A DNA stretch of 37,790 bases, taken from positions 1-37,790 of the forward strand of contig PQAP01000006.1 of NCBI GenBank assembly GCA_003105265.1. The letters run 5' to 3'. Origin of the DNA: a candidate division GN15 bacterium. Lineage in GTDB: Bacteria; Zixibacteria; MSB-5A5; GN15; FEB-12. The notes under the pieces are model-generated. The model had not been told where the DNA came from, did no database searches, and was given only the letters and a program-made list of their open reading frames with translations. The position numbers and the translations under genes are program-made. Of the stretch, positions 2,427 through 21,398 are shown one piece after another. The first letter of the stretch is position 1. Every line of letters starts with the position of its first letter.

Positions 2427-3857
2427 ATGGGTAAGGAAAAGGTACAGAGAGTCAGGCCGCAACTCCTGAAGGGGTTCCGGGATTATTCGCCATCGGAGCA
2501 GATTGCCCGCGAAGCGATGCTGGGAAAAGTCCGCTCGGCCGTGGAATTGATGGGGTTCCTGCCGCTGCAGACGGCTTCGCTGGAATTCGCCGAGACGCTG
2601 CTGGGGCCGCATTACAGTTCCGATTCCCTGGCCGAACTGTTCGGTTTTACTGGTCCTGATGACATCAATATGGCGCTGCGATATGAGTTCACGGTGTCGC
2701 TGGCGCGGTATGTCGCAAGCCAGCCGGACCTCGCGCTGCCGTTCCGCCGGTATCAATACGGCAATGTCTGGCGGGTGGACAAACCAGGTCCGGGAAGATT
2801 CCGCGAATTCATGCAGTTCGATATCGATATCGTCGGCACCCAGAATCTACTGGCGGATGCCGAGATTATCGCCGCGATGGTGACAATATTTGAGCATCTC
2901 GGCGTCAGGCGATTCGCGGTACGCTATTCGAGTCGAAAACTACTCAACGGGGTGGTAGAGTGGGCGGGAATCGCACCGGAACGCGGCCCGGAAGTGATGC
3001 GGGTAATCGACAAGCTCGAGAAGCAGGGCAAAGACGCGGTACTGCTGGAGCTCGGTCCCGGTCGCGAGGACAAATCGGGCGACAAGATACCGGGTCTTAA
3101 TCTTGGCCGGACGGAAATCGCCAAGCTGGAGGAATTCCTGACGCTGGCAGGGACACAGGACAGTGACCCACTGGCGCACGCTCAGGCGCTGGTCGGGAAG
3201 GTTGAAGCTGCACGGGTCGGGATTGAAGAACTTCGCGAGATTGAAAGGCACTTGCGGGGGATGTCAATCGAGCCGTCGGAAGCCAGAATTGACTTAACAA
3301 TTGTCCGGGGGCTCGGCTATTACACTGGCGCCGTGTTCGAAACGACGCTATTGGACCTGCCGGAATTCGGCTCCGTCTTCTCGGGCGGAAGATACGACAA
3401 CCTGGTCGAGCGATTTATCAACAAGCCGTGCCCGGGAGTGGGGTCCTCCATCGGGATTGACCGACTTCTGGCGGCGCTCATCGAGTTGAAGGCGGTAGAG
3501 CTTACGACGTCGACATCCCAGGTCATCGTTACCACCATGGACCGGGAGCGAATTGGTGATTACCTGAATATCCTTCACGAACTGCGACAGGTGGGAATCC
3601 GGGCTGAGATTTACTCGGGCGACACCAGGAATCTGACCAAGCAGATCAAGTATGCGGACAAAGTCGGAATCCCGTTTGCGGTGATAGCCGGAAGCGACGA
3701 GTTCGAAGCGGGCCGCGTGACGGTGAAGAACCTGGTCGCGGGGAGAGTCAAAGGGTCGGAGACTGCCGATCGGGAGACCTGGTTGGCCGCTGAGGGGATT
3801 CAGGAGACTATTCCCCGGTCGCAGCTGATTCAGTATTTGAGGTCGCGACTGGGCTGA
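2427..3857 (+). CDS. hisS: Histidyl-tRNA synthetase
   Basis: HisS charges tRNA-His with histidine in the cytoplasm. The 476-residue protein has the class II aminoacyl-tRNA synthetase core. Motif 1 lies in the N-terminal 60 residues. Motif 2 spans about 108-136 (RRYQYGNVWRVD, then FREFMQFDIDIVG). The histidine-specific block RGLGYYTGAVFE is at 294-305 and motif 3 (GSSIGIDRLLA) at 339-349. The remaining C-terminal 110 residues form the anticodon-binding domain (VIVTTMD, GIRAEIYSGD, QIKYADKVGIPFAVIAG). The intact histidine-binding block and anticodon domain argue against the paralogue HisZ. The start is the ATG at 2427; a TTG lies one codon upstream. No strong ribosome binding site is visible. 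It appears to be transcribed alone from the promoter at 2349. Confidence 0.96.
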   Translation: MGKEKVQRVRPQLLKGFRDYSPSEQIAREAMLGKVRSAVELMGFLPLQTASLEFAETLLGPHYSSDSLAELFGFTGPDDINMALRYEFTVSLARYVASQPDLALPFRRYQYGNVWRVDKPGPGRFREFMQFDIDIVGTQNLLADAEIIAAMVTIFEHLGVRRFAVRYSSRKLLNGVVEWAGIAPERGPEVMRVIDKLEKQGKDAVLLELGPGREDKSGDKIPGLNLGRTEIAKLEEFLTLAGTQDSDPLAHAQALVGKVEAARVGIEELREIERHLRGMSIEPSEARIDLTIVRGLGYYTGAVFETTLLDLPEFGSVFSGGRYDNLVERFINKPCPGVGSSIGIDRLLAALIELKAVELTTSTSQVIVTTMDRERIGDYLNILHELRQVGIRAEIYSGDTRNLTKQIKYADKVGIPFAVIAGSDEFEAGRVTVKNLVAGRVKGSETADRETWLAAEGIQETIPRSQLIQYLRSRLG

Positions 3858-3882
3858 CGGCCTCCCAAAAATCCCCCTATTC

Positions 3883-3896
3883 TTGACCTTAATCAA
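3883..3896 (+). promoter_or_regulatory. FNR/CRP-family operator, class II position
   Basis: TTGACCTTAATCAA matches the FNR consensus TTGAT-N4-ATCAA at 9 of 10 defined bases. Its centre lies between 3889 and 3890, exactly 41.5 bases upstream of the A of the NapH-like ATG at 3931. Known class II FNR and CRP activator sites sit at -41.5 from the transcription start. This implies a start at or next to 3931; a weak -10-like GATGTT sits at 3919-3924. The inference is activation of the downstream gene under low oxygen. Confidence 0.6.
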
Positions 3897-3930
3897 GGAT
3901 TCTCAGCCGGCCTGAGTCGATGTTTGTCGC

Positions 3931-4995
3931 ATGAACAGGACTATGGAAGCCGCGACACTTAAGAACATATCGATTCGCCGGAAATCGGAACGAAAAGGTG
4001 TCCAGACTCTCCGTCTGTGGGCGCAGCTAATCTCGCTCGGTGTGAATGTCTGGATCGGGGTGCAGTTCTATCTCTGGGTGAAGTACATCCAGAACGGTGC
4101 CGTGGGGACCGAGATATCACGGCCACCGGGGGTTGAGGGCTGGCTGCCGATCGGCTCACTGGTATCGCTCAGGCACTTTCTCGGGACCGGCACTATCAGC
4201 ATGATCCATCCGGCCGGGCTGATCATACTGGTCACGATCATTTTCGTTTCCTTCATTTTCAAGAAGGGATTTTGTGCGTGGGTGTGCCCGATCGGATTCA
4301 TATCGGAGATGCTGGGGGATATTTCGGACCGGCTGTTCGGGAGACGCATCAAGCCGCCGAAATGGCTCGATTACCCGCTTCGATCGCTCAAGTATCTGCT
4401 GTTGGCTTTCTTCATCTGGGCGATCCTGATCATGATGTCGCCGCGGGCGATTGAATCATTCCTGAACACGGACTATAATGTCATTTCCGACGTTTTGATG
4501 CTCCGATTCTTCACGCACATCTCGATGTTCGCGCTGGCGGTTATCGCGGCGCTCTTTCTTTTGTCGCTGGTGGTGCGCGGTTTCTGGTGCCGGTATCTCT
4601 GTCCGTACGGCGCGCTGCTCGGGATATTCAGTTTGATTTCGCCGACCCGTATACGCCGGAACGCCGCATCCTGCATTGACTGCAATGCCTGTGCGAAAGT
4701 CTGCCCGGCGTTTATCAAAGTCGACAAGGTAAAGGAAGTGGTTTCGGACGAATGCCTCGGCTGCATGGCTTGCGTCGATTCCTGCCCGGTCAAGAATACG
4801 CTGCTGATCCATCCGGTTCGCAGGAAATTCGCGGTCTCGAGCCGGGCGTGGGCGGCGGCCCTGCTCATTGTCTTCTGGGGGACGCTGCTGGGCGTCAAAT
4901 TTTTCGGACCGTGGCAGAACTCCATCTCCAAAGAGCGGTATATACAGTACATGCCCGGCGTAGAAACCGGTCAGTATCAACATCCGATGCCTTAA
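3931..4995 (+). CDS. NapH/CcoG-like membrane-bound 4Fe-4S ferredoxin
   Basis: The 354-residue integral membrane protein has about five membrane segments (near 29-50, 94-110, 154-169, 197-215 and 306-324) and two bacterial ferredoxin motifs. C248, C251, C254 and C258 form one CxxCxxCxxxC set with Pro following; C275, C278, C281 and C285 form the second. Two CxxxCP motifs (C115/C119 and C220/C224) follow the cytoplasmic ends of membrane segments, as in NapH, CcoG/RdxA and NosR-type proteins. Such proteins pass electrons between the quinone pool and periplasmic or cytoplasmic partners, or help assemble redox enzymes. No nap, cco or nos genes are adjacent, so the partner is unknown. Upstream lies an FNR-type site, consistent with a role in anaerobic or microaerobic electron transfer. 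No ribosome binding site precedes the ATG. Confidence 0.85.
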   Translation: MNRTMEAATLKNISIRRKSERKGVQTLRLWAQLISLGVNVWIGVQFYLWVKYIQNGAVGTEISRPPGVEGWLPIGSLVSLRHFLGTGTISMIHPAGLIILVTIIFVSFIFKKGFCAWVCPIGFISEMLGDISDRLFGRRIKPPKWLDYPLRSLKYLLLAFFIWAILIMMSPRAIESFLNTDYNVISDVLMLRFFTHISMFALAVIAALFLLSLVVRGFWCRYLCPYGALLGIFSLISPTRIRRNAASCIDCNACAKVCPAFIKVDKVKEVVSDECLGCMACVDSCPVKNTLLIHPVRRKFAVSSRAWAAALLIVFWGTLLGVKFFGPWQNSISKERYIQYMPGVETGQYQHPMP

Positions 4996-5012
4996 TGGTG
5001 ATGGAGGAGTAG

Positions 5013-5768
5013 ATGAAACCTGTTTCATTCTTTGACAAATACGCTTCGGAATACGATTGGCTGACCAACGCTCACGCCCGCGTTGCCGGACACACTAAGG
5101 AAGTAGAAGCGCTGATTGAAAGGTTTTCGCCGAAACGGGTGCTTGATGCGGGCTGCGCGACCGGACTGACGGCATCTTTGTTTGCGTCAAATGGGATAGA
5201 TGCGGTCGGACTGGACCGATCCCGCGACATGTTGATCGCGGCGGAGGGAAAATACGGTTCATCAGGTTTGCCGCTCCAGTTCCGAGAGGGACATTTCGAG
5301 TCCCTGCCCAAAAGTATGGACAGCTCATTTGACCTGATCGTCTGCCTCGCCAACGCCATAGCGGGGGTGGAATCGAAAGGGAACCTGAAGAAGAGCGTCG
5401 ATGGGTTTCGGAGAGTGCTGAAGCCGGGCGGGTATCTTGTGCTTCAGGCGCTGAATATCGCAGCGCTCAAAGACCGGCAGATCATGCCCGTGAAAACGAC
5501 GGAGCATGACGGCATAATGTACTCGCGGTTTCTCGAACGGTTGGGAAATACGTCAGTTCTCTATGTCATCCGGATTGACACGCGGATATCGCCCGCGCAG
5601 GCGGAACTGTTTCGGCACGAGACAGTGTGCTTTACGCCGGATCTGCTCGTACAGGCGATCCTCGGCGCCGGTTTCGCCGGTGTCCGCAAGTACGCCGACC
5701 TGACCATGTCGAAACGGTTCTCGGGCAAAGCGCGCGATATCGTTATCGTTGCGCAGCGGCCGCGATAG
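5013..5768 (+). CDS. Class I SAM-dependent methyltransferase
   Basis: This 251-residue protein has a standard Rossmann methyltransferase core. Motif I is VLDAGCATG at about 43-51. An acidic residue ends strand 2 (AVGLDRSRDML), motif post-II is FDLIVCLANAI, and motif post-III is VLKPGGYLVLQ. The C-terminal part is beta-rich and probably caps the substrate. The sequence resembles ubiquinone/menaquinone-type and small-molecule methyltransferases, but no acceptor can be assigned. A perfect GGAGGAG ribosome binding site precedes the ATG, 17 bases after the NapH-like stop. The two genes are therefore probably co-transcribed, which would place this enzyme under the same FNR-type control. Confidence 0.88.
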   Translation: MKPVSFFDKYASEYDWLTNAHARVAGHTKEVEALIERFSPKRVLDAGCATGLTASLFASNGIDAVGLDRSRDMLIAAEGKYGSSGLPLQFREGHFESLPKSMDSSFDLIVCLANAIAGVESKGNLKKSVDGFRRVLKPGGYLVLQALNIAALKDRQIMPVKTTEHDGIMYSRFLERLGNTSVLYVIRIDTRISPAQAELFRHETVCFTPDLLVQAILGAGFAGVRKYADLTMSKRFSGKARDIVIVAQRPR

Positions 5769-5773
5769 GTCAG

Positions 5774-5792
5774 GCCCCGCAGCGGGCTTTTT
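5774..5792 (+). terminator. Short intrinsic terminator after the methyltransferase
   Basis: GCCC (5774-5777) pairs with GGGC (5784-5787) around a 6-base loop and is followed by TTTTT (5788-5792). A shifted CCCG/CGGG pairing is also possible. The stem is only 4 bp, so termination may be incomplete. The T-run overlaps the -35 box of the next promoter. Confidence 0.4.
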
Positions 5793-5818
5793 GACTTGGC
5801 GTGTCGACGTTCTATCAT
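5791..5818 (+). promoter_or_regulatory. Promoter for the exported membrane protein gene
   Basis: TTGACT (5791-5796), a 16-base spacer and TATCAT (5813-5818). The predicted transcription start is near 5825, giving a leader of only about 11 bases with no Shine-Dalgarno before the ATG at 5836. Confidence 0.5.
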
Positions 5819-5835
5819 TATCTTCCGGGTCAACG

Positions 5836-7314
5836 ATGCGTAAATCCGTAGTCACTCTAATGCTATGTGCTATCGCGATTGGTGTCGCGGCGCAGGATCA
5901 GCGGGCACTGGCGCCGGCACAATCGTTCCTGCAGTACCGTCCTATGGGGGAGAAGCGGCTCTGGACATTCGTGGCGAAAGATTCGACGATTGGCCAGTTG
6001 ACATCGATCGTCGAGGGCGAGACGACGATCAACGGCATCGCAGGGTTAACGATTTCTGAAGATCTGAATCTTGATTTTCGTAAGCTCGGTACGGCGTCGA
6101 TCCAACACTATACCGCACAGCATTTCGTCACGCTGACCGGGCAATATCTGGGGGATGAACTTACCGCGACCGTCAACGAGCAGACCGGATCGCTGAGTCT
6201 GCGCCGCAACGGGGATGTCATATCGGGCTACAGCGAGCGTGGCGGGGAAAAGACGTCCCAACAGGTTTCGCTGCCGCCGGACCGGTTTGCGTGGGACAAT
6301 TTCTTTGTAGATCAACTGGAGGCGTATCTGGCGATGAGGGGAGTGCACGTAGGGGATGTCATTGACGACAGCGTCTTCGCTCCCCTGCCGCTTCTGGTAT
6401 CGAGAATCAGGGGAGAAGTGGTGTCGTACGGGTGGATACGACTCTACAATCAGAAATTCGACTCGGCGTTTATCATCGATATCCATGAACCGCAGACGCT
6501 GCGGCTTTACTACTCGAAGGATCGACGGTTGCAGAAGATTGAAGCGCCCCTTCAAGAGATGAAGATCTATCTTGATCTGGTTGCCCCGAAGCAGGTGGCG
6601 CAGCCGCAGAGCGCAAGCTTCTCGCTTACACAGTGGCTGCAACTACTGCCGCTATACGGACTGTACCTGCTGGTAGCGGTGCTGGTAGCATGGTTCTATC
6701 TGCGCGGGCGCATGCGATTCGGCGAACATTATCTCGGCGTGGTTCTCGGAATGCTCGTGATGTGGCTGATACCAGTGACTCAGGTGCCGCTCCAGGAATG
6801 GGTGATCCGGCAATGGCTGCTGCCGGGATTGAAGTCAGGGCAATCGATCTTCGTCCTTGGCCTCCTTCCGGCGATCATTGCAGGACTGGTCCAGGGATTG
6901 CTGTTGACGATCTCGATTTTCTTCCTCCTGTCATGGCGCGGATTCCAGCATTTGCGCGCGCTGTCGACGGGAGCCCTGTGCGGTGCGGGCTTCGGCTTCA
7001 TGCTCGCCTGCTATCTTTCCTCGCAAGGGGGAGCGTCGTGGGATATCGACACCGCTTTTATGGAAAGAGTCTTTCAGATCGCATTTCATATCGCCTCCGG
7101 AGTGATCATCGCGGTGCTGTATTGCCGCGGATTGATGTCTGCAATCCGGGGCGCAGCCATTCTTTCAGGCATCAATACGCTCTTCTACTATTTTGTCGTG
7201 TTCGCTCAACAGCGCATGGTCGACGCCGGCATGCTCGCCTTTCTGCTCGCCTTTACGGTACTCGGGACCTCCGTATGGGCGGTCACACTTCAGAGCAAAG
7301 CTTCACGCAAGTAG
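5836..7314 (+). CDS. Unknown protein: exported domain plus seven-helix membrane domain
   Basis: I do not recognise a family for this 492-residue protein. Residues 1-20 are a signal peptide (MRKSVVTLMLCAIAIGVAA, then Q). Residues about 21-260 form a soluble, beta-rich domain that would face the periplasm; it contains repeated short strands and resembles lipoprotein-like or LolA-like folds only in general character. Residues from about 270 to the end hold roughly seven hydrophobic segments, including a Gly-rich one (GALCGAGFGFMLA) and one with a His (FQIAFHIASGVIIAVLY). That arrangement recalls polytopic intramembrane protease families such as PrsW, but I cannot identify their catalytic motifs. 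The start at 5836 is fixed by the signal peptide. The gene appears to be transcribed alone. Confidence 0.75.
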   Translation: MRKSVVTLMLCAIAIGVAAQDQRALAPAQSFLQYRPMGEKRLWTFVAKDSTIGQLTSIVEGETTINGIAGLTISEDLNLDFRKLGTASIQHYTAQHFVTLTGQYLGDELTATVNEQTGSLSLRRNGDVISGYSERGGEKTSQQVSLPPDRFAWDNFFVDQLEAYLAMRGVHVGDVIDDSVFAPLPLLVSRIRGEVVSYGWIRLYNQKFDSAFIIDIHEPQTLRLYYSKDRRLQKIEAPLQEMKIYLDLVAPKQVAQPQSASFSLTQWLQLLPLYGLYLLVAVLVAWFYLRGRMRFGEHYLGVVLGMLVMWLIPVTQVPLQEWVIRQWLLPGLKSGQSIFVLGLLPAIIAGLVQGLLLTISIFFLLSWRGFQHLRALSTGALCGAGFGFMLACYLSSQGGASWDIDTAFMERVFQIAFHIASGVIIAVLYCRGLMSAIRGAAILSGINTLFYYFVVFAQQRMVDAGMLAFLLAFTVLGTSVWAVTLQSKASRK

Positions 7315-7349
7315 CACGGCGCTGCTGGCGCCGCCTGCCGGTTTAATGG

Positions 7350-7378
7350 TTGACACCCCCAGCCAGAGCGGCTATTTT
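7350..7378 (+). promoter_or_regulatory. Sigma70-type promoter for the ROK kinase
   Basis: TTGACA (7350-7355), an exact 17-base spacer and TATTTT (7373-7378). The predicted transcription start is near 7385, giving a leader of about 66 bases that contains an AGGA-type ribosome binding site before the ATG at 7451. Confidence 0.6.
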
Positions 7379-7450
7379 CGCCGGTCGAATAAGAGGGCCT
7401 GTGTAAGGACTTCGACCGAGGTTGCGTTGAACTTGTAGGACGACGGAAGA

Positions 7451-8422
7451 ATGGCTCAGGATACGGTGTACGCCGGCATAGATATCGGCGGCACGAATAT
7501 CAAGTACGGACTGGTCGATGCCAGGGGGAAGGTGCTGTTCAAAGAGCAGCGACCGACGATGGTGGAAAAAGGGGCGGAGCCGCTCATGCACCTGGTTGCG
7601 AATATAGCGGAGCGCCTTTTATACCACGCCGCCGAAGATGACTACGATGTCAAATGGCTCGGAGTTGGCACGCCAGGGGCGGTGGACGGTCGCACGGGGA
7701 AGGTGATCAGTCTCAGTCCGAATATCGACGGCTGGCAGGGGATGGAGATCGGCCAGATACTCCGCGAGCGCGTGAACCTGCCGGTGTATGTGGACAATGA
7801 CGTCAATGCCATGGCGCTGGCGGAGTCGCGATTCGGCGCCGCCGTCGGATACAAAATGGTAGTTTGCGTGGCCGTGGGAACGGGAGTCGGTGGCGGCATC
7901 GTGGTCGACGGCAAGCTGTGGCGGGGGGCCAATCACACGGCCGGTGAAATCGGGCACATGTCAATCAACGTGAACGGACCGGCCTGCCGGTGCGGCAACA
8001 AGGGGTGTATGGAGGTATATTGTTCATCGGCAGCGATGCTGACCCTCGCGAAGGCGAAATGGCATAACGAGATACCGCCGACCATTAACGATGTGCTTGA
8101 TGGGTCGCTGGACAATCTGTCCATCAAAAAGTTGTTTGCCGCGGCAAAAAAGGAAGACGAGACGGCGCTGTCGGTTATAAACGAAACCGCGCAGTTGCTT
8201 GGCCTCGGATTGGCCGGAGTGGTGAACCTTCTCAACCCGGATATCGTAGTGATAGGTGGCGGTGTGGCGGACGGCGGTGCCGGCTATGTTGAAACGGTCG
8301 CAGCGGAAATCCGCAAGCGTTCGTTCAGCACAGCTACGGAGAACTTGAGAATTGCGCGGGCATCGCTTGGCAATGATGCCGGGTTTATCGGCGCCGGGAT
8401 ACTGGGTGAGTCCAGAAGCTGA
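7451..8422 (+). CDS. ROK-family sugar kinase (glucokinase-like)
   Basis: The 323-residue protein is an ATP-dependent sugar kinase of the ROK family, most like bacterial glucokinases. The phosphate-binding DIGGTNIKYG is at residues 11-20 and the sugar-binding NDVNA contains the catalytic base D117. AVGTGVGGGI is at 141-150. The ROK zinc site is intact: H169 (GEIGHM) with C179, C181 and C186 in CRCGNKGCME. The adenosine-binding region LLNPDIVVIGGG lies near the C-terminus. There is no N-terminal helix-turn-helix, so it is a kinase and not a ROK repressor. Expected activity is phosphorylation of glucose or an N-acetylhexosamine in the cytoplasm; the exact sugar cannot be told from sequence. A small membrane protein follows 22 bases later. 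Confidence 0.9.
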   Translation: MAQDTVYAGIDIGGTNIKYGLVDARGKVLFKEQRPTMVEKGAEPLMHLVANIAERLLYHAAEDDYDVKWLGVGTPGAVDGRTGKVISLSPNIDGWQGMEIGQILRERVNLPVYVDNDVNAMALAESRFGAAVGYKMVVCVAVGTGVGGGIVVDGKLWRGANHTAGEIGHMSINVNGPACRCGNKGCMEVYCSSAAMLTLAKAKWHNEIPPTINDVLDGSLDNLSIKKLFAAAKKEDETALSVINETAQLLGLGLAGVVNLLNPDIVVIGGGVADGGAGYVETVAAEIRKRSFSTATENLRIARASLGNDAGFIGAGILGESRS

Positions 8423-9588: not shown

Positions 9589-9639
9589 ATGAAGAAGAGA
9601 GCACTTAACGTGCTCGAAAGGATAAAGGCATGGCGATAA
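9589..9639 (+). CDS. Putative 16-residue leader peptide
   Basis: ATG at 9589 opens a 16-codon frame encoding MKKRALNVLERIKAWR, ending in TAA at 9637-9639. A GAAGGA ribosome binding site lies 4 bases upstream. The frame overlaps the first 10 bases of the aminotransferase in another reading frame, so ribosomes ending here would release on top of the aminotransferase start. Six of 16 residues are basic. Its coding for a real peptide is inferred from the ribosome binding site and overlap only. Confidence 0.4.
   Translation: MKKRALNVLERIKAWR
9599..9615 (+). repeat. Hairpin inside the leader ORF
   Basis: GAGCAC (9599-9604) and GTGCTC (9610-9615) form a perfect 6-bp stem around TTAAC. It ends 2 bases before the GAAAGGA ribosome binding site region of the aminotransferase. 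It has no T-run, so it is not a terminator. Confidence 0.5.
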
Positions 9640-10838
9640 GCGTTAATCATCAGGTGCAACCGGAGAAGTGGCTGATTGCGCCGCATGTGATCCGATTAGA
9701 GACTTCGATTATCCGTGAAATTCTCAAGATTTCGTCGCAACCGGGGGTGATTTCGTTCGCCGGCGGCCTCCCCGCGCCGGAACTGTTTCCGCTCGAGGAT
9801 CTGAAGAGAATATGCGGTGAAGTGATCGAGAAATACGGTCCGGCGGGATTCCAGTACGCGCTGTCACGCGGGGTACCGGTATTTGTCAAACTCCTGGCTG
9901 AGCGAGCGACCGTGTCGGGCTGTCCGACCGAGCCGGAGAACGTGCTCGTGACGGCGGGCGCCCAGCAGGCGATCGAGCTGGTCGCGCGGGCGTTCATTGA
10001 TCCGGGGGATTATGTCATCGTCGAAAATCCTACGTACGTCGGTGCGCTGCAGGCCTTCAATTATTACCAGGCCCGCTATGTGCCGATCGAAATGGACAAA
10101 GAGGGAATGCGGGTTGAGCAGGTGGAAACGAGCATCCGCAAATACAATCCCAAGCTGATTTACACGGTCTCAAATTTCCAGAACCCGACCGGAATCACGA
10201 TGAGCGAGGAGCGGCGACAGGCGCTGGTGGACGTGGCGGTGAAATACAATATTCCGCTGGTCGATGACAATCCGTATCGGGAAATTCGGTTTGCCGGCAC
10301 TCCGGCGACCCAATTGAAAGCCATCGGCGGCGACGCCGTAATCGAGCTGCACACCTTCTCCAAGACGGTAGCACCGGGATTGAGAATCGGCTGGATCAAT
10401 GGACCCAAGCCGATCCTGAGCCAATTCGAGAAAGTGAAGCAGTGCACAGACCTTCACACCAATTCCTTCAGCCAGTATGTGATCTATGAATTCGTCAAGC
10501 AGGGGCTGATGGATCCTCAGATCGAAAAGATCAAAGCCAATTACCTGGAGAAGCGCAACACCATGCTGCACTCGCTGGAGAAGTACTTCCCGGCCGGTGT
10601 GACCTGGACCAACCCCGAAGGGGGATTGTTCCTTTGGCTGGAATTACCCAAGGGAATTTCGGCTAAGGAGATGCTGCCGCGGGCAATCGAACGGGGCGTG
10701 GCGTATGTGTACGGCTCGCCGTTCTTCGCGGGCGGCGGCGGCGAGAATACGATGCGGCTTGGATTCTCCAATCCGTCTGTTTCAGACATTGTCGAGGGTG
10801 TCAAACGGCTCGGCACGCTGCTCAAAGAGAAGGTCTGA
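9630..10838 (+). CDS. PLP-dependent aminotransferase (class I/II, LysN/2-aminoadipate type)
   Basis: This 402-residue fold-type I aminotransferase keeps FAGGLPAPELFP at 43-54, typical of the LysN/Aro8/MocR-like subgroup. TAGAQQAIEL lies at 108-117 at the cofactor phosphate site. QNPTG is at 184-188, DDNPY at 212-216, and the Schiff-base lysine K245 is in FSKTVAPGLRIGW. There is no GntR-type DNA-binding domain, so it is an enzyme and not a MocR regulator. Members transaminate 2-aminoadipate, branched-chain, aromatic or other amino acids with 2-oxoglutarate; the substrate cannot be fixed here. An AAAGGA ribosome binding site precedes the ATG at 9630. A leader ORF overlaps the start, and a strong terminator follows. 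The next gene is the DapF-like protein, which hints at amino-acid metabolism but has its own promoter. Confidence 0.88.
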   Translation: MAISVNHQVQPEKWLIAPHVIRLETSIIREILKISSQPGVISFAGGLPAPELFPLEDLKRICGEVIEKYGPAGFQYALSRGVPVFVKLLAERATVSGCPTEPENVLVTAGAQQAIELVARAFIDPGDYVIVENPTYVGALQAFNYYQARYVPIEMDKEGMRVEQVETSIRKYNPKLIYTVSNFQNPTGITMSEERRQALVDVAVKYNIPLVDDNPYREIRFAGTPATQLKAIGGDAVIELHTFSKTVAPGLRIGWINGPKPILSQFEKVKQCTDLHTNSFSQYVIYEFVKQGLMDPQIEKIKANYLEKRNTMLHSLEKYFPAGVTWTNPEGGLFLWLELPKGISAKEMLPRAIERGVAYVYGSPFFAGGGGENTMRLGFSNPSVSDIVEGVKRLGTLLKEKV

Positions 10839-10858
10839 GCGTATAGATCTATTCGCAG

Positions 10859-10883
10859 AACCCGCCTTCGGGCGGGTTTTTTT
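10859..10883 (+). terminator. Strong intrinsic terminator after the aminotransferase
   Basis: AACCCGCC pairs perfectly with GGCGGGTT around a TTCG tetraloop, and seven T follow from 10877. It sits 21 bases after the stop codon. It separates the aminotransferase transcript from the DapF-like gene. Confidence 0.93.
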
Positions 10884-10921: not shown

Positions 10922-11764
10922 ATGAAAATCCAATTCAGCAAGTATCAGGCGCTGGGAAATGACTTTCTGGTAGTCGACCGCACGGGTATTCGGTTCAGCA
11001 GAGCGCGCCTTGGTCGTCTGGCCCTCGACATGTGCAACCGGCGGACCGGGGTCGGGGCGGACGGCATACTGCTACTCACGAAGGCCGGGACAGCTAATAG
11101 CAAAGTAGATGTGTTCAACGCTGACGGCGGTTGGGCAGAAAAATCGGGAAATGGTCTGAGGATCACGGCGGCGCACCTGCGGATGAACGGTGAGAAGTCG
11201 TCGACTTTCCGCATCCTCATGGGCGGAGAGGAATCGCTGGTCGCGCTCAAGAAGACTATTCCGGGCGGATACCTTGTGACAGCGGAATTGGGACAGCCGG
11301 ACTTTCGGTCATCCCATGTGCCGGTCAAGAGCCGGAACACGTATTTGATAAACGGCGCCGTTCGAATTGCCGGGAAGCCGGTAACGGCGACCTGCCTGTC
11401 AATCGGCAATCCGCATACGGTGATCTTCGTCGATGACTTCGATTTTGACTGGCATGCACTGGGTCGCGCTCTGGAACATGCTCCGATTTTTCCGCGAGCG
11501 ACCAATGTCGAATTCGTGAAGGTAATGAGTCGATCAAAGCTGCGGGTGAACGACTGGGAGCGCGGCGCCGGCGCGACGGGATCTTCGGGGACGGGCGCGG
11601 CGGCGGCGGTCTGTGCGGCCGTGATGCTGGGGAAGGCCGAGCGGGAATGCGAAGTGCGATTCGACACCGGTTCGTTGTTTATTCACTGGCGGGCGTCGGA
11701 TGACGTCATCGAACTTACCGGACCGGTGCAGTGCGTGATGTCCGGCATGTACGAATGGCGGTGA
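10922..11764 (+). CDS. DapF-like diaminopimelate epimerase homologue with both catalytic Cys replaced by Ser
   Basis: The 280-residue protein has the length and two-domain layout of diaminopimelate epimerase, which interconverts LL- and meso-diaminopimelate for lysine and peptidoglycan. Substrate-contacting motifs are kept: LGNDFLVVD (11-19), RTGVGADG (41-48), NADGG with N66, GNPHTVIFVDD with N163, TNVEF with N195, and ERGAG with E213 and R214. The two proton-transfer cysteines are not. The motif CGNGxR reads SGNGLR with S75, and the motif ACGTG reads SSGTG with S222. Both are TCG codons, each two bases away from any Cys codon, so single sequencing errors do not explain them. Canonical DapF needs both thiols. 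The protein may be a different isomerase, an inactive homologue, or an epimerase with unusual chemistry. A catalytic dapF may exist elsewhere in the genome. Confidence 0.85.
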   Translation: MKIQFSKYQALGNDFLVVDRTGIRFSRARLGRLALDMCNRRTGVGADGILLLTKAGTANSKVDVFNADGGWAEKSGNGLRITAAHLRMNGEKSSTFRILMGGEESLVALKKTIPGGYLVTAELGQPDFRSSHVPVKSRNTYLINGAVRIAGKPVTATCLSIGNPHTVIFVDDFDFDWHALGRALEHAPIFPRATNVEFVKVMSRSKLRVNDWERGAGATGSSGTGAAAAVCAAVMLGKAERECEVRFDTGSLFIHWRASDDVIELTGPVQCVMSGMYEWR

Positions 11765-13762: not shown

Positions 13763-14779
13763 GTGTTTATCGTAATGTCACCGGGGGCGACCCGGGAACA
13801 GATCGCGGCCGTTTGTGATGAGATTTCCCGGATGGGACTGAAAGCGCATCCCATAAACGGCACCACCCGTACGGCCATTGGCGTGACCGGCAACAAGACG
13901 CAGGTGGCCGCGGACCATTTGCTGGTACTCTCCGGAGTGGAAGATGTCGTGCACGTATCATCGCCGTACCGATTGGCCAGTCGCGAGTCGCATCCCGATA
14001 GCACCGTAATCAATGTTGGCGGAGTGAAATTCGGAGGTTCCGAGTTCAGCGTGATCGCCGGACCATGCGCGGTGGAGAGCCGAGAACAATTGATGACCGC
14101 AGCGAACCGGGTCGCGCGCGCCGGAGTGAAGTTGTTTCGGGGCGGAGCGTACAAGCCGAGAACATCGCCGTACAGTTTTCAGGGCTTGGGAAAGCCGGGT
14201 CTGGAATTGCTGGCGGAAGTGCGCGCGAAGTACGGGCTTCGTATCGTGACTGAAGCAATCGACACCGAAACGATCGAGATGGTGGCGGAATATTCGGACA
14301 TCATCCAGCTCGGTGCCCGGAATATGCAAAACTTCTCGCTATTGAAGAAAGCCGGGCGGATGCGGAAGCCGGTGTTGCTGAAACGCGGGATGGCGGCGAC
14401 TGTCGAGGAGTTCCTGCTGGCGGCCGAGTATATTTTGTCGGAGGGGAATGAACAGGTGATTCTTTGCGAGCGGGGGATTCGCACAATGGCGGAACCGGCT
14501 CGCAATGTCCTGGACTTAGCGGTTATCCCTCAGATCAAGCTACTCAGTCACCTGCCGATCATCGCCGATCCGAGCCACGGCACCGGCCGGCAGGCGCGCA
14601 TATTGCCGATGTCACGCGCCTCATTGGCTGCCGGAGCCGACGGGTTGCTGATCGAAGTGCATCACGCTCCGGAGGCGGCGCTCTCCGATGGCCCGCAGGC
14701 GATTACGCTCGACGAATTTGACACGCTGATGGCGGAACTGCGGAAGCTGGGGCCCGCTGTGGGCAGGATTGTGCACTGA
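13763..14779 (+). CDS. aroF: 3-deoxy-7-phosphoheptulonate (DAHP) synthase, type I-beta
   Basis: This enzyme condenses phosphoenolpyruvate and erythrose 4-phosphate, the first step of the shikimate pathway. The 338-residue protein has an N-terminal ferredoxin-like regulatory domain (about 1-75), as in Thermotoga-type enzymes. The TIM barrel carries AGPCAVES (99-106), FRGGAYKPRTSPYSFQGLG (125-143), GARNMQNF, LLKRG, ERGIRT and IADPSHGTG. Together these form the PEP, metal and E4P sites. In characterised relatives the N-terminal domain gives feedback inhibition by Tyr or Phe; that is likely but unproved here. The start is GTG at 13763, supported by GGGAG 6 bases upstream and the family N-terminus. 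Its stop overlaps the aroA start by one base (TGATG). Confidence 0.95.
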   Translation: MFIVMSPGATREQIAAVCDEISRMGLKAHPINGTTRTAIGVTGNKTQVAADHLLVLSGVEDVVHVSSPYRLASRESHPDSTVINVGGVKFGGSEFSVIAGPCAVESREQLMTAANRVARAGVKLFRGGAYKPRTSPYSFQGLGKPGLELLAEVRAKYGLRIVTEAIDTETIEMVAEYSDIIQLGARNMQNFSLLKKAGRMRKPVLLKRGMAATVEEFLLAAEYILSEGNEQVILCERGIRTMAEPARNVLDLAVIPQIKLLSHLPIIADPSHGTGRQARILPMSRASLAAGADGLLIEVHHAPEAALSDGPQAITLDEFDTLMAELRKLGPAVGRIVH

Positions 14780-16119
14780 TGCTTAAGCTCAGGAAGGCCA
14801 AAAGAATCGGCGGCAATGTCGTTGTGCCGGGGGACAAGTCGATAGCGCACCGGGCGGCCCTGCTATCCATCCTATCACGTGGCCCGATTACGATCAAGAA
14901 CTGGCCCGGCAACGATGACTGCAACCGCTCGCTGGCGGCAGCCCGTCAGCTTGGTGTCACGGTAACGAGAGATGAAAACGTCCTGATTCTCACGCCTCCG
15001 GAGCAGCCGATGATCGCCCCAGAGTCGATTATCGACTGCGGCAATTCCGGCACCACCGCCCGATTGCTGGCGGGGTTGCTGGCAGGTTCGAACGTCAGTG
15101 CGATTTTAAGCGGGGATGAATCGCTGTCTTCACGGCCGATGGCGCGGGTTATTGAACCGTTGACGGCGATGGGAGCCGATATCTTTGCGACGAACAACCG
15201 GCTGCCGATCAAGATCGCGGGGAAGAAGTTGCTGCCATTTGAATACCGGCTGCAGGTCTCATCGGCGCAGGTAAAATCGGCGCTGCTGCTCGCCGGACTG
15301 TCGTCGCACTGCACGGTCACCGTGCGCGAGGACACGGTTACTCGCGATCACACCGAGAATATGATTGCAGCGCTGGGGGACGGTCTGGTGGTCCGCGAAG
15401 TGAAGGCGCAGTACGTGCCCGACCCGGATGATCCACGCAAGAAGAAGTCAGTCGTTTCGGAGCCGTTCAAGAAAGAGATTACGCTGACCGGCCAGGCGCA
15501 TATTGACGGAGGGGAAGTCGATATACCGGGTGACATTTCGACAGCCGCTTTCTTTTTCGCTCTGGCCGCGATGTCGGAGAAGACAATCGCGGTGCCGCGA
15601 GTCGGTCTCAATTCTACCCGGACCGGAATTCTTGAGCATCTGAGAGCGATCGGTTGTCAGGTGGAGGTCGAAGATCGAAAGGTAATTTCGGGTGAACCGC
15701 GCGGAAATGTGATTGTAACCGGCGGGAAGCTCAAACCACGTCGGTTACACGGAGAAACCGTAGTCGATCTGATCGACGAAATTCCGATTGTAGCGGTCAT
15801 GGCGGCGCTGGCCGACGGCACGACTATTATCCGGGATGCGGGAGAGCTGAGACATAAGGAATCGGATCGGCTGGCGACGGTGGCAGAGAACCTGCAGCGG
15901 ATGGGAATTAAATGCGGTCTGCTCGAGGATGGCCTTGCCATCGAAGGGGGGAAGGAGCTTCAGGGCGCCGACCTCAAAACCTACGGTGACCATCGAATTG
16001 CCATGGCCTTCGCGATTGCAGCACAATTTGCGGTGGGGCCATCGACCCTGGATGATGAGTCCGTAGTCGGCATTTCCTGTCCGACGTTCTTCGAATTGCT
16101 TCACACCGTAGCGTCATGA
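14779..16119 (+). CDS. aroA: EPSP synthase (3-phosphoshikimate 1-carboxyvinyltransferase)
   Basis: AroA joins phosphoenolpyruvate to shikimate 3-phosphate, the sixth step of the pathway. The 446-residue protein has the two inside-out alpha/beta lobes. Key blocks are GDKSIAHRAALL (18-29) with the phosphate-binding Lys/Ser, CGNSGTTARLLAG (87-99) and SSAQVKSALLLAG. DHTENMIAALG, PGDISTAAFFFA, KESDRLATVAENL and YGDHRIAMAFA follow. NSGTTARLLAG differs from the common NAGTAxR form of plant-type enzymes at the Gly-Thr turn, placing it among the diverse bacterial variants. A charged segment around 210-228 (DPDDPRKKKS) looks like a surface insertion. It overlaps aroF by one base and aroE by four, so translation is probably coupled. 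Confidence 0.96.
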   Translation: MLKLRKAKRIGGNVVVPGDKSIAHRAALLSILSRGPITIKNWPGNDDCNRSLAAARQLGVTVTRDENVLILTPPEQPMIAPESIIDCGNSGTTARLLAGLLAGSNVSAILSGDESLSSRPMARVIEPLTAMGADIFATNNRLPIKIAGKKLLPFEYRLQVSSAQVKSALLLAGLSSHCTVTVREDTVTRDHTENMIAALGDGLVVREVKAQYVPDPDDPRKKKSVVSEPFKKEITLTGQAHIDGGEVDIPGDISTAAFFFALAAMSEKTIAVPRVGLNSTRTGILEHLRAIGCQVEVEDRKVISGEPRGNVIVTGGKLKPRRLHGETVVDLIDEIPIVAVMAALADGTTIIRDAGELRHKESDRLATVAENLQRMGIKCGLLEDGLAIEGGKELQGADLKTYGDHRIAMAFAIAAQFAVGPSTLDDESVVGISCPTFFELLHTVAS

Positions 16120-16961
16120 AAACTTCCTGGCGTTTTGGACTGCTGGGGGAGAATATCAGTTACTCCAAGTCGCCGGCGATCTTCGCCGCTATCGGTGAAT
16201 ACCTGAAACAGGAAATCCGGTTTGAGCCATACGATGTCCCGCTACTGCAAGTGTGGGCGGTAGTCGACCGGATGAAGAGTGGCGAGACAGACGGACTGGC
16301 GGCCACTATTCCCTACAAGAAGTTGTTGAGCACCTACGTTGATCGCTGCAGTTCCGAGGCGGAGGCAATTGGCGCAGTGAACTGTATTACAACGCTGGGC
16401 ACGGAATTGGTGGGACACAATACCGATTGGAAAGGGTTTCTGCAGCCCTTACAGTCCTGCAGAGGCAAACTGGATGGCGCGCCCGTGATGATAGTGGGCA
16501 GAGGGGGAGCGGCGCGGGCGGCGATATACGCTCTGCGCAACCTTGGATCGATGGGGGAATTCACGGTGGTGTCGCGTGAGCGCGGCGAGCCGAATACGTT
16601 GAGGCGAGCTGCCGGGGACGTGCCAATTCAGGAACTAACATTTGACGAGGGTCAGCAGGTGAAAGCGGTAACGCGAGACTGTGCGCTGATTGTGAACGCA
16701 ACGCCGCTGGGCGGTGGCAATTATCCCGATGGCGGCAATCTCACCGAGATTCTCGATTTCGGCCCCAAGGCCATATACTATGACCTGAACTATAATGATA
16801 ATAACGGGCTGATAAAGAAGGCCCGCCAGTCGGGCGTTACGGTGATCGACGGCAAGCGCATGCTGGTAGGACAGGCACTGATCTCGTTCAATCTCTGGAC
16901 CGCGATAAGTGTTCCGTTTGAACCGATATACGAAAGGGTCTTTGGATCATCCGGCGGATAA
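16116..16961 (+). CDS. aroE: Shikimate dehydrogenase
   Basis: AroE reduces 3-dehydroshikimate to shikimate with NADPH. The 281-residue protein has the substrate-binding SYSKSPAIF (15-23) and TIPYKK with catalytic K68. GAVNC (86-90) is followed by NTDWKGF (102-108), which supplies the catalytic Asp. The nucleotide-binding GRGGAARAAIYAL starts near 128. NATPLG, YYDLNY and GKRMLVGQAL complete the set. The ATG overlaps the aroA stop by four bases. Confidence 0.95.
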   Translation: MKTSWRFGLLGENISYSKSPAIFAAIGEYLKQEIRFEPYDVPLLQVWAVVDRMKSGETDGLAATIPYKKLLSTYVDRCSSEAEAIGAVNCITTLGTELVGHNTDWKGFLQPLQSCRGKLDGAPVMIVGRGGAARAAIYALRNLGSMGEFTVVSRERGEPNTLRRAAGDVPIQELTFDEGQQVKAVTRDCALIVNATPLGGGNYPDGGNLTEILDFGPKAIYYDLNYNDNNGLIKKARQSGVTVIDGKRMLVGQALISFNLWTAISVPFEPIYERVFGSSGG

Positions 16962-16966
16962 GCACG

Positions 16967-17515
16967 ATGCGGCGAACCTCCAAACGAAAACATATCTACC
17001 TAATCGGGTTCTCGGGGTCGGGGAAGAGCACGGTCGGAAAACGGCTAGCCGTGCGAAGGGAATGCCGTTTTGTCGACACCGATAAAGAGATTGCCGACCG
17101 GTTTGATGCAACGGTATCTTCCATCTTCGCAGAGTTCGGCGAACCGCGGTTTCGCTGCGAAGAAACGGCGGTGCTGAATAGAGTCGCCGGACTTGCGTCC
17201 CCCGTTGTGGTGGCAGTCGGAGGCGGTGGATTCGAACGAGCCGCAAACCGCCGCATGATGCGCGAATCCGGCATCGTTGTCTATCTCAAGTGTTCCATTC
17301 GGGAACTGTACCGACGTTTGCGGGATATTGATGATCGGCCGCTAATCAGAGCCGGGGAATCGCGGCTGGCGGCGATGAAGAGGATGCTTGCGCAGCGGAG
17401 GCCGCGCTATGAAGAAGCCGACATAACCGTGTCCGTGACAAGTGGCACGCTGCAGACCGTAGTAGACCGAATCACAAAGCGATTGACTGAATATGAGCGT
17501 AAGAATCGAAGTTGA
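16967..17515 (+). CDS. aroK: Shikimate kinase
   Basis: AroK phosphorylates shikimate at O3 using ATP. The 182-residue P-loop kinase has Walker A GFSGSGKSTVGK (14-25). DTDKEI carries the substrate-binding Asp, and FRCEET carries the shikimate-binding Arg. VVAVGGGG forms the Walker B-like Gly stretch, DDRPLI is the lid, and QRRPRYEEAD is the C-terminal adenine-site motif. It begins 5 bases after the aroE stop. Its last 23 bases overlap the start of aroB in another frame. Confidence 0.94.
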   Translation: MRRTSKRKHIYLIGFSGSGKSTVGKRLAVRRECRFVDTDKEIADRFDATVSSIFAEFGEPRFRCEETAVLNRVAGLASPVVVAVGGGGFERAANRRMMRESGIVVYLKCSIRELYRRLRDIDDRPLIRAGESRLAAMKRMLAQRRPRYEEADITVSVTSGTLQTVVDRITKRLTEYERKNRS

Positions 17516-18623
17516 CCTTGGCGAACGATCCTACCCTATCATAATCGATGGTGCAAAACGCCCCGAAGTGCACCGGCAGATACGTGCGGTGCGGCCGGAT
17601 CGCGTATTCGCGGTTTTCGATGCTCAGGTATTTGCACTTCATGGCAGAGCGCTAATCGACGATCTTAAGAAGTCCGGCGAACCGGCATGCTCGCTCACAT
17701 TGCCGATCGACGAAAGGGCCAAGAACCGCAGCACGGTGAATGAGATTCACGATTGGTTGCTGGCAGAAGGGGTGAGTCGGTCGGATCTGATACTTGCAGT
17801 GGGAGGCGGTGTCACCACAGATCTGATCGGATACGCGGCGGCGACGGTACTTCGCGGGGTGTCATGGGGGGCGATTCCCACAACGCTGGTGGGAATGATC
17901 GACGCGGCTATTGGCGGCAAGACCGGCATTAATCACCCATTGGCCAAGAATGCAATCGGTGTATTCTGGCAGCCACAATTCGTATATAGCTATACGCCGT
18001 ACTTGAACACGCTTGATGAGAGACAGGTGTATGCCGGCATCGGAGAACTCATTAAGTATGCCGGACTGGCGGGTGAGTCGCTTATCGCTATGACAAGTGA
18101 ACTGGTTGATGTGGCTGGAATCGGGAGCGGCAGAAAGTTGGAGAAGGCGATCGCAGTGGCGGCCGCGTACAAGGCGGCGCTGGTGAGCGAAGATGAGCGC
18201 GATGTGGGCATAAGACAGTTTCTGAATCTTGGCCACACGTTCGCGCACGGGCTTGAGCAGTCGCTGGGTTACGGCAAGCTGTTGCACGGCGAAGCGGTCT
18301 CTGTTGGGCTGCTGGCGGCCGTCTATTTGAGCGAAATGACAATTGCGGGAGCGCGAACAAATCTGGCCGGATATCGTCAGGTGGTTGAAGAGAATATCGC
18401 GCGTGTTCCGCGCCGTACGATAGAGGTGGACAGGGTGCTCAAAGCGATGGAGTTCGATAAAAAGCGGGCCGGCCGGAGCATTCGTCTGATCTTGCTCAAG
18501 CGGCCGGGAAGACCGGTCATTCGATCGGGCATCGATTCACAGCGGATACGACAGGCCTTGGAAAGAGCAGTTCAATTCTATAGAGAGAATGGAGGCAAAC
18601 GTGGCGCGGATTCTCATCATTAA
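17493..18623 (+). CDS. aroB: 3-dehydroquinate synthase
   Basis: AroB converts DAHP to 3-dehydroquinate with a bound NAD and zinc. The 376-residue protein shows the NAD-binding GGGVTTD (104-110), PTTLVGMIDAAIGGKTGIN (129-147) and NAIGVFWQP. Zinc ligands are E185 in GELIKYA, H248 in NLGHTFAHG and H265 in LLHGEAVSVG. The N-terminal domain is shortened but standard for small AroB forms. The ATG lies 23 bases inside aroK, and the stop lies 23 bases inside aroQ. The two overlaps have equal length. Confidence 0.95.
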   Translation: MSVRIEVDLGERSYPIIIDGAKRPEVHRQIRAVRPDRVFAVFDAQVFALHGRALIDDLKKSGEPACSLTLPIDERAKNRSTVNEIHDWLLAEGVSRSDLILAVGGGVTTDLIGYAAATVLRGVSWGAIPTTLVGMIDAAIGGKTGINHPLAKNAIGVFWQPQFVYSYTPYLNTLDERQVYAGIGELIKYAGLAGESLIAMTSELVDVAGIGSGRKLEKAIAVAAAYKAALVSEDERDVGIRQFLNLGHTFAHGLEQSLGYGKLLHGEAVSVGLLAAVYLSEMTIAGARTNLAGYRQVVEENIARVPRRTIEVDRVLKAMEFDKKRAGRSIRLILLKRPGRPVIRSGIDSQRIRQALERAVQFYRENGGKRGADSHH

Positions 18624-19038
18624 CGGACCGAACCTGAATTTGCTCGGGACGCGTGAGCCCGAAATATATGGAACCGAAACGCTGGAGGAAATGAACGGCC
18701 GACTGAGCGACCTGGCCAAGGAGATCAACCTGCAGATCGATTTCTTCCAGTCAAACCACGAAGGGGAAATCATCGACATCCTCCAGCGGGAGAGCAAAAA
18801 GGCGGATGGTATAATCATCAATCCGGGAGCGCTCACGCATTACAGTTACGCGATCAGGGACGCTATCGCCGCCATCAACGTGGAGACGATAGAGGTACAC
18901 CTTTCGAATTTGTTTGCCCGGGACGACTTCCGACAGAAGTCGGTTATCGCTCCGGTGTGCCGTGGGCAGGTATGCGGTTTCGGATTCTATGGATATGCCA
19001 TGGCACTTTCGTACTTCTCGGACATGCTTGAGGATTAG
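18601..19038 (+). CDS. aroQ: Type II 3-dehydroquinate dehydratase
   Basis: AroQ dehydrates 3-dehydroquinate to 3-dehydroshikimate. The 145-residue protein has the type II fold signatures: NGPNLNLLGTREPEIYG (8-24) with catalytic Tyr Y23, SNHEGEIID (51-59), NPGALTHYSYA (74-84), and EVHLSN with H100. The GTG at 18601 is preferred because GGAGG lies 5 bases upstream and the product then begins MARILIINGP, like the family. The ATG at 18589 would add four residues. It is the last shikimate gene; a MATE gene follows 26 bases later. Confidence 0.95.
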   Translation: MARILIINGPNLNLLGTREPEIYGTETLEEMNGRLSDLAKEINLQIDFFQSNHEGEIIDILQRESKKADGIIINPGALTHYSYAIRDAIAAINVETIEVHLSNLFARDDFRQKSVIAPVCRGQVCGFGFYGYAMALSYFSDMLED

Positions 19039-20456: not shown

Positions 20457-21398
20457 ATGGCCGGACTTTCCATAGCTGTGCTACTTGCCGAGAAGCGTCA
20501 CGCAGCCCCTCTCGGGCATCCCGAAAACGCGGCACGTCTGAACAGCATAGCCACGCAACTGGAGTCGCTAATGGCAACCGGAAAGGCCCATCCGCTGAAC
20601 TGCAGAGAGCACGGCATTGAATCGATTACCCATATACACGATGAATCGTACATTGCGAATCTACGAGAGATCTGCAAGCGGGGAGCAGGATATCTCGACG
20701 CAGACACCTATGTGTCGTCGGGCAGTTTCGAGGCGGCGTTGGCTATGGCAGACGCGGCGCTTTCCGGCGTTGACGAGGTATTCGGAGGAAGAAACCGGCG
20801 GGTCTTTGTCCTCGGTCGACCACCGGGACACCATGCCGAACGCGACCACGCGATGGGGTTTTGCCTGATCAACAATGTCGCAGTGGCAGCTCAGTACGCA
20901 ATCGATCATTACGGTGCCAAGCGAGTGGCAATTGTCGATTTCGATGTGCATCACGGCAACGGCACACAGCATGCGTTCTATGATCGGCAGGATGTCTTCT
21001 TCGTATCGTCGCATCGATACCCATTTTATCCCGGTACGGGAGGCGCCGATGAAACCGGGGTCAGGGATGGCAAAGGGTATACGATCAATCTGCCGCTGTC
21101 GGCGGGTTCAGGTGATGAAGCGTTACTGAATGGGTTTGAATCAAGCGTGATTCCCGCACTGGAGCGTTATCGGCCGGATATGGTGCTGGTTTCCGCCGGA
21201 TTCGACGCCGCTGTCGGCGATCCGCTTGGCGGTATGACGGTGACCGGTGAGGGGTTTCTTCACATCGGGAAACTGATCCGCAAGCTCGCCGACCGAACAT
21301 GCGGCGGCCGCATCGTGTCGGTGCTGGAGGGAGGATACGACAACCGGGGGAATCGCGAGTCAATAATGAGTTATCTTGACGGAATAGGATTCGATTGA
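20457..21398 (+). CDS. Histone deacetylase/AcuC-family zinc amidohydrolase
   Basis: The 313-residue protein belongs to the arginase-deacetylase fold family that removes acetyl groups from lysines, polyamines or other amines. GHPENAARLNSI (20-31) is the usual opening. RPPGHHAERDHAMGFC contains the catalytic His pair H125/H126. DFDVHHGNGTQ supplies zinc ligands D163 and H165, and SAGFDAAVGDPLGG supplies D250. The region LEGGYDNRG carries the Gly-Gly-Tyr of the active site. All metal and catalytic residues are present. It could act on acetylated proteins such as acetyl-CoA synthetase or on acetylpolyamines; the context does not choose. It heads a chain of overlapping genes ending at lptD. Confidence 0.92.
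   Translation: MAGLSIAVLLAEKRHAAPLGHPENAARLNSIATQLESLMATGKAHPLNCREHGIESITHIHDESYIANLREICKRGAGYLDADTYVSSGSFEAALAMADAALSGVDEVFGGRNRRVFVLGRPPGHHAERDHAMGFCLINNVAVAAQYAIDHYGAKRVAIVDFDVHHGNGTQHAFYDRQDVFFVSSHRYPFYPGTGGADETGVRDGKGYTINLPLSAGSGDEALLNGFESSVIPALERYRPDMVLVSAGFDAAVGDPLGGMTVTGEGFLHIGKLIRKLADRTCGGRIVSVLEGGYDNRGNRESIMSYLDGIGFD

Follow-up and report, generated by a model that had tools for sequence, protein, structure and literature searches.

Diaminopimelate (DAP) epimerase, DapF, is the textbook example of a thiolate/thiol two-base epimerase and is also an antibacterial target. To our knowledge, all characterised members of the family have two catalytic cysteines. In the DapF fold the catalytic pair sits before helices (PMC11602996), and the contact residues that hold DAP have been described (PMC12039745, PMC8225329). 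Among related racemases, Cys-to-Ser mutants of the Dab racemase PddB, which lacks the distal-carboxylate contacts N64, N157, N190 and R209, keep less than 0.1% of activity (PMC8225329), and those of HisR are greatly slowed (PMC11602996). For the proline racemase superfamily, the part of PMC4113996 drawn on here describes a natural Ser/Cys 4-hydroxyproline 2-epimerase that still epimerises and a Ser/Thr trans-3-hydroxyproline relative that is a dehydratase. In the open-licence literature we found no paper on a natural DapF with serine at both positions (Ser/Ser) and none reporting an assayed one, and annotation models name such proteins plain DapF, leaving the residue change unflagged.

A DapF homologue with serine at both catalytic positions

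The gene lies in the window, the 37,790-nucleotide stretch of contig PQAP01000006.1 that was analysed, from a Zixibacteria metagenome-assembled genome (MAG) that is 91% complete and comprises 2.97 Mb on 237 contigs.

10922–11764, + strand: dapF, serine-type diaminopimelate epimerase homologue, 280 aa (TIGR00652, PF01678, AlphaFold model)
11144–11146, + strand: S75, codon TCG, at the position of E. coli C73, directly before helix 76–88
11585–11587, + strand: S222, codon TCG, at the position of E. coli C217, directly before helix 223–235

A first-pass annotation had called this gene a DapF homologue in which both catalytic cysteines are serine, and both parts of that description hold. The protein scores 203 bits against the equivalog model TIGR00652 (curated cut-off 114.65) and 144 bits against PF01678, and it is the sole PF01678 protein of the host MAG, the two matches found there being the two halves of this one open reading frame. 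Alignment with E. coli DapF places S75 on C73 and S222 on C217, and the register is confirmed by a phmmer comparison with the cyanobacterial structure 9mro, in which SGNG falls on CGNG and SSGTG on ACGTG with both motifs free of gaps. Because S75 and S222 replace the catalytic cysteines, we class the protein as a probably working DapF variant and not as a standard member. A pseudogene is ruled out by pairwise dN/dS values of approximately 0.15–0.25 (Ks saturated), well below 1 and indicative of purifying selection, and by the intact gene in relatives.

Both serines are indeed encoded by TCG, from which it had been argued that a simple error is unlikely, as TCG lies two base changes from any Cys codon. 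The conclusion stands on the serines seen in relatives (see below), whereas the codon argument adds nothing to it: among the serine codons of the surrounding genes TCG is used most often (149 of 356), relatives use TCC, TCG, TCA, TCT and AGC at the two sites, and the change from TGC to TCC or AGC takes a single step.

DAP-binding residues and predicted structure

The substrate-binding framework listed in the first-pass annotation (N66, N163, N195, E213 and R214) aligns with its E. coli equivalents.

11117–11119, + strand: N66, distal DAP contact (E. coli N64), invariant in 56 of 56 serine-clade sequences
11408–11410, + strand: N163, distal DAP contact (E. coli N157), invariant in 56 of 56
11504–11506, + strand: N195, distal DAP contact (E. 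coli N190), invariant in 56 of 56
11558–11563, + strand: E213-R214, distal amine and carboxylate contacts (E. coli E208-R209), invariant in 56 of 56

With N13, which aligns with E. coli N11, the set of six residues in contact with the two ends of DAP, distal and proximal, is complete, and it is invariant across the same 56 sequences. The only clear differences of the serine clade from the Cys forms are W177 and S221, and no compensating acid/base residue was apparent in the alignment of these sequences.

An AlphaFold model of the protein (pLDDT 95.6) has the two-domain DapF fold and is closest to the DapF structures with DAP analogues 9mro and 3ejx (TM 0.91). It also matches the engineered H. 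influenzae DapF mutants C73S and C217S (2q9h and 2q9j; TM 0.82 and 0.81). Like the catalytic pair described for this fold, S75 and S222 each directly precede a helix.

Distribution and phylogeny of serine-type DapF

The serine pair is conserved across the order, as a survey of the window protein and 49 relatives found Ser/Ser in 48 of the 50 DapFs, the remaining two being Ser/Cys (L024) and Cys/Ser (L034). The MAG Gpa_37 (G005/G083) that holds L024 has a second dapF copy, L069, which is 79% identical to it and likewise Ser/Cys; on the DNA examined, an aminotransferase gene lies upstream of only one of the two.

A wider scan of 84,980 species genomes, using two patterns of which one contained the first serine and one neither serine, returned Ser/Ser proteins from Acidobacteriota, from Myxococcota (labelled Deltaproteobacteria) and from one Thermoproteota MAG, so that Ser/Ser DapF is conserved across at least four phyla. 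It recurs as the only DapF in genomes of Acidobacteriota and of some Myxococcota. The Acidobacteriota sample gave a match in 145 of 149 genomes, nearly always as a single copy, and 24 of the best 30 loci by score were Ser/Ser, a proportion that, being biased to high scores, does not measure how common the form is in the phylum; among the remaining six, the fully read ones were Cys/Cys, with one Cys/Ser. One Myxococcota MAG carries a Cys-type DapF beside lysA together with a separate Ser/Ser copy.

The same scan returned Cys/Ser DapF proteins from Alphaproteobacteria, and these are a separate, independent departure from the Cys pair. Five such genomes (L107, L110, L120, L129 and L131) have a single Cys/Ser DapF, a strong LysA and no Ddh, and one of the five is a cultured strain, Aquibaculum arenosum. 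A further Cys/Ser protein, L094, is labelled Zixiibacteriota, groups among Cys/Cys proteins of other phyla and has no aminotransferase neighbour; it may represent a deep branch, a gene transfer or a misbinned contig.

A maximum-likelihood tree built without the two catalytic-residue columns joins 53 Ser/Ser, two Ser/Cys and one Cys/Ser sequence in one group (SH-aLRT 94), which excludes the Cys/Cys proteins and the remaining Cys/Ser ones. When long branches were removed the same group returned with weak support (52/79) and appeared in 48% of bootstrap trees. On the best tree the sequences thus suggest a single ancient origin of the serine clade, the alternative being a few origins. Ser/Ser DapF is a real and ancient natural variant.

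Gene neighbourhood

The first-pass annotation had also noted an aminotransferase as neighbour of dapF, an observation that extends well beyond this genome.

9630–10838, + strand: class I aminotransferase, LysN/kynurenine-aminoadipate type (Thermus LysN 2egy, 301 bits; PH0207, 357 bits)
10857–10880, + strand: terminator-like hairpin in the aminotransferase–dapF intergenic region (1 found, 1.3 expected by chance)

The aminotransferase gene lies directly upstream of dapF throughout Zixibacteria, and the pair is conserved across the phylum. In some genomes it heads a trpE-trpG-trpD-like cluster (trp names assigned by eye), and in others it is followed by argS-aroF-aroA in an argS-shikimate cluster. 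The suggestion that dapF has its own promoter found no support, as a search upstream of the gene gave no sigma-70-like site and the hairpin at 10857–10880 is no more than chance would provide. In the window, the region downstream of argS (13763–19038) holds shikimate genes for DAHP synthase, EPSP synthase and shikimate dehydrogenase and, by eye, for shikimate kinase, 3-dehydroquinate synthase and dehydroquinase. Farther along, a gene for a histone-deacetylase-family protein (20457–21398; PF00850, 315 bits) adjoins one for a fumarylacetoacetase-family protein.

Lysine and DAP pathway genes

LysA acts on meso-DAP. Acidobacteriota genomes with a single Ser/Ser DapF have LysA above cut-off, so meso-DAP must be made in them, and a search for Ddh (meso-DAP dehydrogenase) found none in these, in the Myxococcota genomes where Ser/Ser is the sole DapF or in the Thermoproteota MAG. 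A search of the open-licence literature gave no direct evidence for meso-DAP in Acidobacteriota cell walls. The Thermoproteota MAG (L125), a long branch on the tree, has its Ser/Ser gene in an operon of dapA (3144–4040), dapB (4040–4795), an aminotransferase gene (4826–6010), dapF (6001–6810) and lysA (6812–8101), in which dapA, dapB, dapF and lysA each score above their NCBIfam cut-offs and the best matches of the aminotransferase are LL-DAP aminotransferase models, below cut-off.

The picture in Zixibacteria is different. DapA (TIGR00674) was not detected in 58 of 61 genomes, the host included, with 14 of 14 control genomes positive; DapB_C was found in 0 of 31 genomes, Ddh in 0 of 61 (again including the host), LysA above cut-off in 0 of 61 and DapL (TIGR03540) above cut-off in 0 of 31. 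The search of the host genome for a second dapF or for ddh, which the first-pass annotation had proposed, thus turned up neither, and dapL as an alternative route gave no match above cut-off. For DapA and DapB most Zixibacteria genomes have no match of any strength, and a weak match to E. coli DapB in the relative G010 (C11:23085–23837) was rejected, as it runs antisense to a longer open reading frame. Matches below cut-off do exist for LysA-like proteins and aminotransferases, so a divergent LysA or DapL is still possible. As for the alpha-aminoadipate route to lysine, 1.85 of the 2.99 Mb of G010 contained no convincing LysW-like peptide and no match to E. coli argB, argC, argE or leuA queries.

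MurE, by comparison, is above cut-off in 57 of 61 Zixibacteria genomes. The equivalents of E. coli R389, N414, R416, G464 and E468, which we take to be the meso-DAP recognition residues, are kept in the 30 Zixibacteria MurEs examined, with one Lys in place of R389. Since the upstream DAP enzymes appear to be missing and yet DapF and a DAP-type MurE are kept, Zixibacteria have either an unusual DAP supply, through an undescribed route or uptake, or a DapF that serves a DAP-like acid.

Discussion

We propose that the window protein is probably a DAP epimerase belonging to a distinct, serine-type DapF clade that uses a Ser/Ser acid-base pair. The observed basis for this is the fold, the register of the serines, the invariant DAP contacts, the deep conservation, the sole copy and the operon context in a relative. 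This reading is favoured because Acidobacteriota genomes with a strong LysA and no Ddh rely on Ser/Ser as their single DapF, and because of the dap operon of L125. It also draws on the single group in the best tree, on purifying selection and on the natural Ser/Cys epimerase of the related proline racemase superfamily. In the proposed mechanism N66, N163, N195, E213 and R214 would hold the distal L-centre of bound LL-DAP, S75 and S222 would carry out the proton transfers, and the reaction would be LL-DAP to meso-DAP, presumably the same in Zixibacteria. Several observations speak against it: in related enzymes the engineered change from Cys to Ser removes nearly all activity, and no new acid/base residue is apparent; the host lacks DapA, DapB and Ddh as well as above-cut-off LysA and DapL; a Myxococcota MAG has both types of DapF; the support for a single origin is weak (52/79); and L125 is a long branch.

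More tentatively, Zixibacteria might make DAP, or an isostere accepted by MurE, by an undescribed route in which the LysN-like aminotransferase is possibly involved, with the Ser/Ser protein acting as a cofactor-independent, thiol-free epimerase that employs two serine hydroxyls. Taken in full, this scenario is doubtful.

Of the three meanings that the first-pass annotation had offered, the best fit is an epimerase with different acid/base chemistry; the invariance of all DAP contacts, the distal-carboxylate ones included, makes a new substrate or a regulatory homologue less likely. The idea of another substrate in Zixibacteria, be it a DAP-like diamino-dicarboxylic acid (lanthionine, for example) destined for a DAP-type MurE or a different amino acid, with the serines tuned to it, stays alive because the upstream DAP enzymes are missing there. 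It draws further on the absence of an above-cut-off LysA or DapL alongside the kept MurE recognition residues, on the location of the aminotransferase-dapF pair in aromatic amino-acid clusters, and on earlier substrate changes in the DapF homologues HisR, PddB and O-ureidoserine racemase. We nonetheless consider it unlikely, as the protein keeps every DAP contact and groups with serine-type DapFs from genomes that have LysA or a dap operon.

It is also conceivable, and in our judgement improbable, that the enzyme is a DAP epimerase that transfers protons through another group (a serine-held water or another side chain) or by a one-base mechanism. In favour of this, serine makes a weak base and the Cys-to-Ser mutants retain hardly any activity (PMC8225329), but the clade offers no new conserved acid/base candidate, W177 and S221 being its only clear differences from the Cys forms, and its reciprocal Ser/Cys and Cys/Ser members suggest that both positions still do chemistry. 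A non-catalytic homologue with a regulatory or binding role could be imagined from the absence of both thiols and from the second role of E. coli DapF in binding RppH (PDB 6d13 and 6vck); we regard this as very improbable given the invariant active-site residues and the genomes in which the protein is the sole DapF and LysA needs meso-DAP. Finally, an error of sequencing, assembly or alignment that conceals true cysteines, for which one could cite only the origin of the sequence from a MAG of 237 contigs, is refuted by the serines of independent MAGs and isolate genomes and by the gap-free alignment of the motifs.

If whole phyla do use the serine pair, the thiol requirement would not be general, and thiol-directed inhibitor design would miss serine-type bacteria. 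The natural series Cys/Cys, Cys/Ser, Ser/Cys and Ser/Ser provides ready material for testing proton transfer by hydroxyls. A separate question of pathway, that of the third peptidoglycan amino acid and the lysine source, arises in Zixibacteria from the missing upstream DAP enzymes.

Comparison with known enzymes

The Chlamydia bifunctional DapF/glutamate racemase (NF038284, PMC5885031) belongs to the same superfamily and is a DapF with a widened role; the window protein falls outside that model, at 71 bits against a cut-off of 350. HisR, CntK and PddB share a DapF-like fold and no longer act on DAP, and they use a Cys pair (PMC11602996, PMC8225329), whereas the window protein has no catalytic cysteine and, unlike PddB, keeps all of the distal-carboxylate residues. 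In the proline racemase superfamily, too, one or both thiols have been lost naturally with catalysis retained, in a different family and on a different substrate; the part of PMC4113996 drawn on here describes no Ser/Ser form. The standard DapFs of H. influenzae, E. coli and Anabaena (9mro) have the same length, fold, DAP contacts and loop register and differ in having two proton-transfer cysteines where the window protein has serines. The H. influenzae C73S and C217S proteins (2q9h and 2q9j) carry the same substitutions, but as laboratory single mutants, whereas in the window protein both serines occur naturally, in a pairing that persists across phyla.
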